Shown in pieces: positions 2,947 through 24,432 of a stretch of 64,000 nt of DNA. The position numbers and the translations under genes were made by a program. The notes under the pieces are model-generated. The model ran no database searches, was not told the origin of the DNA, and saw only the letters and a program-made list of their open reading frames with translations. The stretch is from assembly GCA_026397955.1 (NCBI GenBank), contig JAPLTV010000020.1, positions 1 to 64,000 of the forward strand. The letters are read 5' to 3'. Each line of letters starts with the position of its first letter. Positions within the stretch are counted from its first letter, which is position 1. The DNA is from Verrucomicrobiota bacterium (GTDB taxonomy: Bacteria; Verrucomicrobiota; Verrucomicrobiia; Opitutales; UBA953).

Positions 2947-3414
2947 ATGAAGCTCCATTCTCTGCCCAAAATCAAGGGCTCCACTCATCGCCATAAAATC
3001 CTTGGCCGCGGTCGCGGTACGGGACACGGCAAGACCTCTGGTCGTGGTCACAAGGGTATGAAAGCCCGTTCTGGTGGCGGACATCGCCCCGGATTCGAAG
3101 GTGGCCAGATGCCCCTTTACCGCCGCTTGCCTAAGCGCGGTTTCAATAACATCAATCGCATCGACTACGCCGTGGTCAATGTGTGCGACCTCCAAGAGCT
3201 CGAAGGCAAAGTCTTCGGTCTCGAAGAATTGAAAGCAGCGGGCGTCTTACGCTCCAACGCTCCGATTCTTAAGGTTCTTGGCACGGGCGATCTTTCACGT
3301 GCCGTCACCGTCAAGGCGCATCGTTTCTCTGATTCGGCTAAGGCCAAGATTTTGGCCGCAGGCGGAAAAGTGATTCTGATTGAAGAGAAAAAAGCGACCG
3401 GAGTCGCTGAGTGA
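2947..3414 (+). CDS. rplO: 50S ribosomal protein L15
   Basis: 155 residues. L15 is a late-assembly 50S protein. The glycine-rich N-terminal region GRGRGTGHGKTSGRGHKGMKARSGGG and the PLYRRLPKRGF block are the L15 signature; the C-terminal half carries LEELKAAGV and ILAAGGKV. It starts 13 nt after the rpsE stop, leaving no room for rpmD. Its stop lies 23 nt before the favoured secY start. Confidence 0.98.
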   Translation: MKLHSLPKIKGSTHRHKILGRGRGTGHGKTSGRGHKGMKARSGGGHRPGFEGGQMPLYRRLPKRGFNNINRIDYAVVNVCDLQELEGKVFGLEELKAAGVLRSNAPILKVLGTGDLSRAVTVKAHRFSDSAKAKILAAGGKVILIEEKKATGVAE

Positions 3415-21124: not shown

Positions 21125-22135
21125 ATGAGGGCCTTGCTGCTTCTTTTTCTGACCGCGTCATGCCTGGCGGATACCGTCACGATGAAGGACGGTACCTTCC
21201 TGAAAGGGCGTATCGAGCGTATCGCCTCCGGCGTGCTCGAGATGCGTGTGCCGGTACTCGGTGAGGCCAACGTGCAGCACCTGCAGCTGGCGCAGGTCGA
21301 ATCATTCATCACCGATGACGCCGTGCTGGTGAGCTCCGGCGGCGTGGTGACGCGCGGCCCGGCGAACGCCGCCGCTGGCCGGGTGGCTTCGAAGGGCGGG
21401 GCGGAGACAAGCACCCTGGACGCCGCCTTGGAGTTGTGGCGCGACCCATCCCTCCGTCCCGCGGAGACTGCGGGTAACCGCCAATGGACCACGCAGGCCG
21501 ACGTCGATGTCTCGGGTCGTAACGGCGTGGTGATGGGGTCCGGCTTCAGCGCCGGTTTCTCGGCCAAGGGCGTGACCAAGGCCGACACTGTGATTGCCGG
21601 TGTTCGCTTGGTGCGGGCGGATACAGGTAATCTCACTTCGACGGATGACTTACACGCCACGGCTTCCTATGAGACTAATCCGACGGACGTCGTTTTCTGG
21701 TACGTGCGCAGCGACAGCGGTTATGATAATGCCCGCCTGATTGATTTCTTCTCCGTGAACGCGGCCGGCTGGGGCTTCCGCTTGCACTCCGACGCCAAGG
21801 GCAAGCTCGACGCCCGCCTCGGTCTGGCGCACCGCTTCGAACGGTACTCTTCGCCAAGCCAGCCGACCTTGTCCGCCCCCTCGGCGGACATCGGCCTGAT
21901 CTTCTCGCGAGAGCTCGGGTGGGCGGCCTGGGATACCTCACTTAATTTTGTGCCCTCGTTCCTGACGGCCGGTGACTTCTACGTCCGTCACGAGACCAGT
22001 CTCAATGTGCTGCGTAACGCCGGGCCGCTTTCCTTGAGGGTGGGCGTGGCCAATGATTTCAGGTCCAAACCCCTGCCAACCCAAGTGAAGACGGACACCT
22101 CCTATTTCCTGAGAACGACCTATGTCTGGAAGTGA
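21125..22135 (+). CDS. DUF481-like outer-membrane protein
   Basis: 336 residues with a signal peptide (MRALLLLFLTASCLA). The N-terminal segment DTVTMKDGTFLKGRIERIASGVLEM resembles the small SH3-like region found before DUF481 domains. The later part consists of alternating strands ending in the aromatic FLRTTYVWK, as expected for an outer-membrane beta-barrel. Function of the family is unknown. Divergent from hemY with a 66-nt gap; the next gene is glnN. Confidence 0.7.
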   Translation: MRALLLLFLTASCLADTVTMKDGTFLKGRIERIASGVLEMRVPVLGEANVQHLQLAQVESFITDDAVLVSSGGVVTRGPANAAAGRVASKGGAETSTLDAALELWRDPSLRPAETAGNRQWTTQADVDVSGRNGVVMGSGFSAGFSAKGVTKADTVIAGVRLVRADTGNLTSTDDLHATASYETNPTDVVFWYVRSDSGYDNARLIDFFSVNAAGWGFRLHSDAKGKLDARLGLAHRFERYSSPSQPTLSAPSADIGLIFSRELGWAAWDTSLNFVPSFLTAGDFYVRHETSLNVLRNAGPLSLRVGVANDFRSKPLPTQVKTDTSYFLRTTYVWK

Positions 22136-22147
22136 GCAGGAGTTGAC

Positions 22148-22183
22148 TGCCTAAAAATAGGCACAATTGTCTAAAAAGATACA
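22148..22183 (+). promoter_or_regulatory. Two tandem 16-bp dyads upstream of glnN (candidate activator sites)
   Basis: TGCCTA-AAAA-TAGGCA at 22148-22163 is a perfect 6-bp inverted repeat; TGTCTA-AAAA-GATACA at 22168-22183 is an imperfect copy. The two are exactly 20 bp apart, about two helical turns, so they lie on the same face of the DNA. They sit 33-68 bp upstream of the -24 element, as expected for a bacterial enhancer-binding protein. The first could also serve as a weak terminator for the upstream gene. Confidence 0.55.
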
Positions 22184-22215
22184 AAACCCCCTGTGAATGG
22201 TTACCTATTGAACCG

Positions 22216-22231
22216 TGGCACAGTGGGTGCT
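22216..22231 (+). promoter_or_regulatory. Sigma-54 promoter of glnN
   Basis: TGGCAC-AGTGGG-TGCT: GG at 22217-22218 and GC at 22229-22230 with exactly 10 bases between, matching the -24/-12 rule (TGGCACN5TTGCW). Transcription would start near 22242, leaving a 34-nt A/C/T-rich leader before the ATG. Sigma-54 control of a glutamine synthetase is a well-known arrangement for nitrogen regulation. Confidence 0.75.
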
Positions 22232-22275
22232 TTGAAATTGTTCGTAATTAAACACCTTTTCCAATCCCCCAATCA

Positions 22276-24432
<2,157 letters not shown>

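Follow-up and report, generated by a model that had tools for sequence, protein, structure and literature searches.

The closest described system is the NtrC (NR-I) regulon of Proteobacteria, whose type case, E. coli glnAp2, combines a sigma-54 promoter with two upstream activator dyads, and which controls glutamine synthetase, PII, AmtB and the activator itself (PMC5343134; PMC3870243). The core of this regulon in Proteobacteria has the same gene set as the one described below (PMC5343134). The enterobacterial NtrC box is TGCACCAnnnTGGTGCA, i.e., TGCACC-N5-GGTGCA (PMC8743547), and at glnAp2 weaker extra activator sites, the governor sites, are located in the promoter region (PMC3870243). The NtrC motif of Caulobacter is related to the Fis motif and unlike the E. 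coli NtrC motif (PMC10274813). According to a recent survey, sigma-54 control of glutamine synthetase is mainly proteobacterial (PMC12316311).

For the Verrucomicrobiota group studied here, the literature searched held no transcriptional-control mechanism for nitrogen assimilation, and within our incomplete coverage of the literature on the phylum we found no report of the site described below or of sigma-54 control of glnN, the gene for the type III glutamine synthetase (GSIII). In cyanobacteria, glnN is controlled by NtcA. Nitrogen control of cyanobacterial glnN has been reported (PMC4923085), and cyanobacteria lack a sigma-54 system (PMC3162934).

Here, we analysed a 64-kb stretch of DNA (the window), contig G000:C49 of a freshwater (lake) Opitutales genome bin with an assembly of 2.45 Mb. 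Its glnN resembles the proteobacterial type case in promoter class, in the two upstream dyads and in the genes that share them. In contrast, the proteobacterial regulon has GSI, whereas the Opitutales one has GSIII, no adjacent ntrB and dyads over the start region. The Opitutales site, TGCYTAAAWTTARGCA, comprises 16 bp and has the outer TGC/GCA in common with the enterobacterial box, but differs in the inner bases and is one bp shorter. The initial annotation had already set the glnN site apart from the enterobacterial box, and this holds for the aligned sites, which read TGCYTAAAWTTARGCA and not TGCACC-N5-GGTGCA.

Results

A sigma-54 promoter and three dyads precede glnN

The glnN gene (22276..24432, on the forward strand like its control elements given below) starts with an ATG at 22276 and encodes a type III glutamine synthetase of 718 aa (PF12437, PF18318 and PF00120), in which the GSIII N-terminal and C-terminal domains, PF12437 and PF18318, were matched above the cut-offs. 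Upstream of the gene, a -24/-12 element with exact spacing had been proposed, which was borne out by the sigma-54 promoter TGGCACAGTGGGTGCT at 22216..22231; its -12 part reads GTGCT where TTGCW is usual. Based on the promoter geometry, transcription is predicted to start at about position 22242, 12 nt past the C of the -12 GC. No sigma-70-like promoter for glnN was found in the region 22000-22400.

The first putative activator dyad, S1 (TGCCTAAAAATAGGCA, 22148..22163, centre about -86 from the predicted +1), reads TGCCTA-AAAA-TAGGCA and is a perfect inverted repeat with pairing at 6/6 half-site positions. The second and weaker one, S2 (TGTCTAAAAAGATACA, 22168..22183, centre about -66), reads TGTCTA-AAAA-GATACA. 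The initial annotation had described two dyads with centres 20 bp apart; positions and spacing (centres at 22155.5 and 22175.5) were confirmed, while S2 turned out to be an imperfect dyad that pairs at only 4/6 half-site positions. Activator sites are usually found 80-150 bp upstream, compared to which S2 is closer to the promoter (PMC4987338). A third dyad, S3 (TGTTCGTAATTAAACA, 22239..22254), was missing from the initial annotation and spans -3 to +13, thereby overlapping the predicted start. A weak dyad at 22123-22138, spanning the stop codon of the upstream gene, reached 4.6 bits and was taken as coincidence because of this low score and because it is missing where the upstream gene differs.

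The arrangement of dyads and promoter before glnN is real and highly significant. TGGCAC-N6-TGCW has a single exact match in the window and eight in the whole assembly, and S1 is the sole exact match to the loose dyad consensus within the window. With three mismatches allowed, this consensus occurred at chance level (59 observed versus 59.7 expected), and therefore a weight matrix was trained on sites of other genes, taken exclusively from upstream of ntrC, PII and amtB orthologues with every glnN site left out. Over all window positions, this matrix ranked S1 first (22.4 bits), followed by S3 (16.5 bits), S2 (10.0 bits) and a fourth position at 7.8 bits. When the control region was shuffled 2000 times with its dinucleotides kept, the score of S1 was never reached, 16.5 bits were reached 3 times and 10.0 bits 53 times, so that the case for S2 rests on its conservation and position and not on its score.

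Conservation in related GSIII loci

When the glnN control region was compared with those of 21 further GSIII loci from Opitutae, all could be aligned over their full length, giving an alignment of 22 loci. Within these, the promoter parts TGGCAY and TGCT did not vary, and both dyads together with the promoter were kept in about 20 related loci, the dyad pair recurring at -68/-48 from the promoter start. The distance between S1 and S2 is 30 bp, one helical turn more, in L014 and 19 bp in L011 and L012, and L027 has one clear dyad. Either dyad can be the stronger copy, and the copy at the S2 position is strong in many relatives; the idea that one dyad is weak where the other is strong was considered and rejected (Spearman -0.20, p = 0.38). 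About 13 of the 22 glnN loci have a counterpart of S3, located +21 to +23 from the promoter start.

The same dyad and promoter occur at other nitrogen genes

Genome-wide scans were made with sequence patterns. The initial annotation had proposed a search for further copies before nitrogen genes. The glnN-derived pattern was searched in the whole assembly, and matches were obtained before an ntrC-like activator gene on contig C38, before a PII gene and before amtB; in each case a sigma-54 promoter follows the dyad. For the ntrC-like gene, 17 same-genus loci extend far enough upstream to be examined; every one of them has the dyad at -68 to -70, and the promoter reads TGGCAY-N6-TGCC. At the PII gene the dyad is located at -47 and is weak in some genomes, 12 of 14 same-genus loci matching at 12/16 positions or better. 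In amtB of the same-genus genomes it lies at -90 to -92, with a weaker second dyad 19 bp farther upstream. The offsets from the promoter start, 47/48, 68/69, 90/91 and 110 bp, proceed in steps of about two helical turns, and the dyads are therefore on the same side of the helix. Together, glnN, PII, amtB and the activator gene correspond to the core of a classical NtrC regulon.

Further genes were noted in these scans. On C116 (G000:C116:5721-8094; L133), two exact sigma-54 promoters precede a porin-like gene together with urtA and urtB, both of which score above curated cut-offs. A dyad covers the -12 element of urtB, which has no upstream dyad, and the porin promoter has weak upstream dyads only; these genes probably form a further branch of the nitrogen regulon. 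Additional dyads close to sigma-54-like elements (L276:1505, L138:4091 and L279:1556) precede genes for a small AHPGHEG protein in two genomes and for a circularly permuted ATP-grasp-like protein, which are possible extra regulon members. Dyads that occur additionally in single genomes are mostly without a promoter. A perfect palindrome, TGCTTAAATTTAAGCA, is located before the acetolactate synthase gene ilvB (G000:C45:5501-5516; L130:5002-5017) and occurs in five same-genus genomes at shifting positions, flanked by GGGGTA and TACCCC repeats. It was rejected as a sigma-54 target since no sigma-54 element accompanies it.

Candidate activators and a candidate kinase

The initial annotation had predicted that an NtrC-like activator with its own site sequence controls GSIII, which would require rpoN and an activator of this type in the genome. 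Both were found: rpoN is located on C115, with no dyad near it, and two complete response-regulator-type sigma-54 activators are encoded on C38 and C116, while three more Pfam matches were weak. These genes and the same dyad at other nitrogen genes support the prediction. The C38 protein (497 aa) consists of a receiver, an AAA+ domain with GAFTGA and a Fis-type HTH (HTH_8), in that order. Its best-matching family is ntrC with 481.4 bits, which is below the curated equivalog cut-off of 558.6, and no kinase gene, and hence no ntrB, was present in the 12 kb surrounding its gene; for these two reasons the protein is referred to as NtrC-like and not as NtrC. Among solved structures, E. coli Fis is nearest to its HTH, in agreement with the AT-centred site. 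Caulobacter NtrC is without GAFTGA and acts at sigma-70 promoters, whereas the C38 protein has GAFTGA and the sites accompany sigma-54 promoters.

A search for an NtrB partner among the five HisKA kinases yielded none linked to the C38 gene. An unlinked kinase on C100 (L239), next to a coaBC-like gene, appears to be soluble, shows no obvious membrane segment and combines a PAS-like with a HisKA part; its nearest models are AtoS and ZraS. This kinase is only a candidate for the partner.

Discussion

Control of glnN by NtrC and sigma-54 would be of a known kind, with a new variant of the site, and is well supported computationally. The dyads, the promoter, rpoN, the activator gene, the site at other nitrogen genes, the conservation and the genus specificity were all computed. 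We consider it very probable that glnN is sigma-54-dependent and driven by the C38 NtrC-like activator through S1 and S2, copies of a dyad that also precedes its own gene, PII and amtB. The C38 protein is the likely activator because the dyad precedes its own gene, which suggests autoregulation. Upon nitrogen shortage, this response regulator would be activated, bind to both S1 and S2 from the same side of the helix and assemble there; its ATP hydrolysis would then open the promoter at 22216-22231, which sigma-54 RNA polymerase would hold closed until then, and transcription of glnN would begin near 22242. By the same dyad at helically phased offsets, the regulator would also control its own gene, the PII gene and amtB. 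The identity of the binding protein, its phosphorylation, the nitrogen signal and the start point are what we infer in this scheme. Counting against it are the C38 score below the cut-off, the lack of a neighbouring kinase, the weakness of S2, its centre at about -66 and the ilvB dyad without a sigma-54 element.

The promoter would be just as sigma-54-dependent if the dyads were bound by the other full activator, that of C116, with the C38 gene only one of its targets. Like the C38 protein, this activator is a complete receiver-AAA+-HTH_8 protein, and its gene adjoins hemA near phoR/phoB-like genes. However, a 12-kb region surrounding the C116 gene contained no dyad scoring at least 9.5, whereas all same-genus loci that were examined have the dyad before the C38 gene. 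NtrC typically regulates its own gene, and the ntrC model matches the C38 protein better than the C116 protein (481 versus 426 bits). We therefore regard the C116 activator as an improbable regulator of glnN. The dyads might also bind a repressor or a separate Fis-like global factor, with glnN depending on sigma-54 via an activator that binds elsewhere; the site does resemble a Fis core site, the activator HTH itself is nearest to Fis, some dyads overlap promoters, and the strong ilvB dyad has no sigma-54 element. Yet at four operons the distance between the upstream dyads and the sigma-54 promoter is fixed and helically phased, as it would be for enhancers, and a dyad-promoter pairing of this kind occurs nowhere else in the genome, which makes this explanation very unlikely. 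A chance resemblance, arising from AT-rich sequence between genes and an accidental -24/-12 match, would fit the chance-level frequency of the loose consensus in the window, but is hardly credible: about 20 loci conserve the arrangement, a matrix from other genes places the dyads at the top, and the shuffles and the recurrence at other nitrogen genes also speak against it.

If the C38 regulator acts at these promoters, it may also limit itself. In ntrC and amtB, the first base of a dyad falls exactly on +12, counted from the promoter start, and the dyad has its TGC in common with the -12 element; the urtB dyad has the same register and is kept in two relatives, and PII has no promoter-overlapping dyad. 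The amtB dyad varies in its middle part, but its distal GCA is the same in 14 genomes. When the downstream 44-48 bases were shuffled, the observed score was reached in 2/3000 cases for glnN, 0/3000 for ntrC and 1/3000 for amtB. By analogy to the governor sites (PMC3870243), the dyads over -12/+1 of glnN, ntrC, amtB and urtB may limit expression at high activator levels, and, more tentatively, could let abundant activator cap its own promoters; unlike governor sites, they overlap -12/+1, and the +12 register is common to ntrC, amtB and urtB. In ntrC, amtB and urtB, about 4 nt separate the predicted start point from the start codon (L143 ~1497-1500; L132 ~3259-3263; L133), and the sigma-54 mRNAs of these genes would therefore be almost leaderless. 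Since conservation at ntrC exceeds what a dyad needs there and these predicted mRNAs have almost no leader, other constraints may act as well.

The 16-bp site appears to be a genus-level feature and not a phylum-wide one. With at most one mismatch and both strands counted, which are not independent for the motif and the control alike because the pattern is nearly palindromic, 20 genomes of the genus contained the motif 88 times and the reversed control pattern 10 times, and in 14 genomes outside it the counts were 13 for the motif and 45 for the control. In general, the same dyad was not found at GSIII across the whole phylum; related dyads were seen in termite-gut Puniceicoccales and a lake Verrucomicrobium (L029, L078), 20 bp apart in L078. 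A sigma-54 promoter was present at 13 of 25 anchorable outgroup GSIII genes of the phylum versus 0.1 expected, so that sigma-54 control of GSIII looks older than the site. Some of these other lineages have instead an ACAA-N4-TTGT inverted repeat before GSIII (L296, L308, L309, L310, L317 and L321), in several cases also with a sigma-54 promoter; this repeat is perhaps the site of a different activator. In the phylum-wide search, GSIII was missing from the majority of the other genomes sampled in this order, and the GSIII of the window genus shares only about 60% identity with its nearest counterparts outside the family, indicating a patchy history of GSIII in the order.

Taken further, an upstream enhancer and a -12/+1 operator with the same dyad might form a self-limiting switch, in which increasing amounts of activator would at first open its own promoters and later block them; the site would then be a genus-level replacement in the phylum's older sigma-54 control of GSIII. 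This reading is tentative, and we lean somewhat against it; if true, several self-limited sigma-54 promoters would give almost leaderless mRNAs.

A compact regulon of GSIII, PII, AmtB, the activator and probably urea uptake is thus defined with its site, promoter geometry and likely regulator, and is therefore testable in a cultured relative. It would present a case of regulatory turnover, in which the sigma-54 promoter of GSIII is kept in many lineages of the phylum and the activator site differs, and it would provide a little-studied phylum with a testable nitrogen-control circuit.
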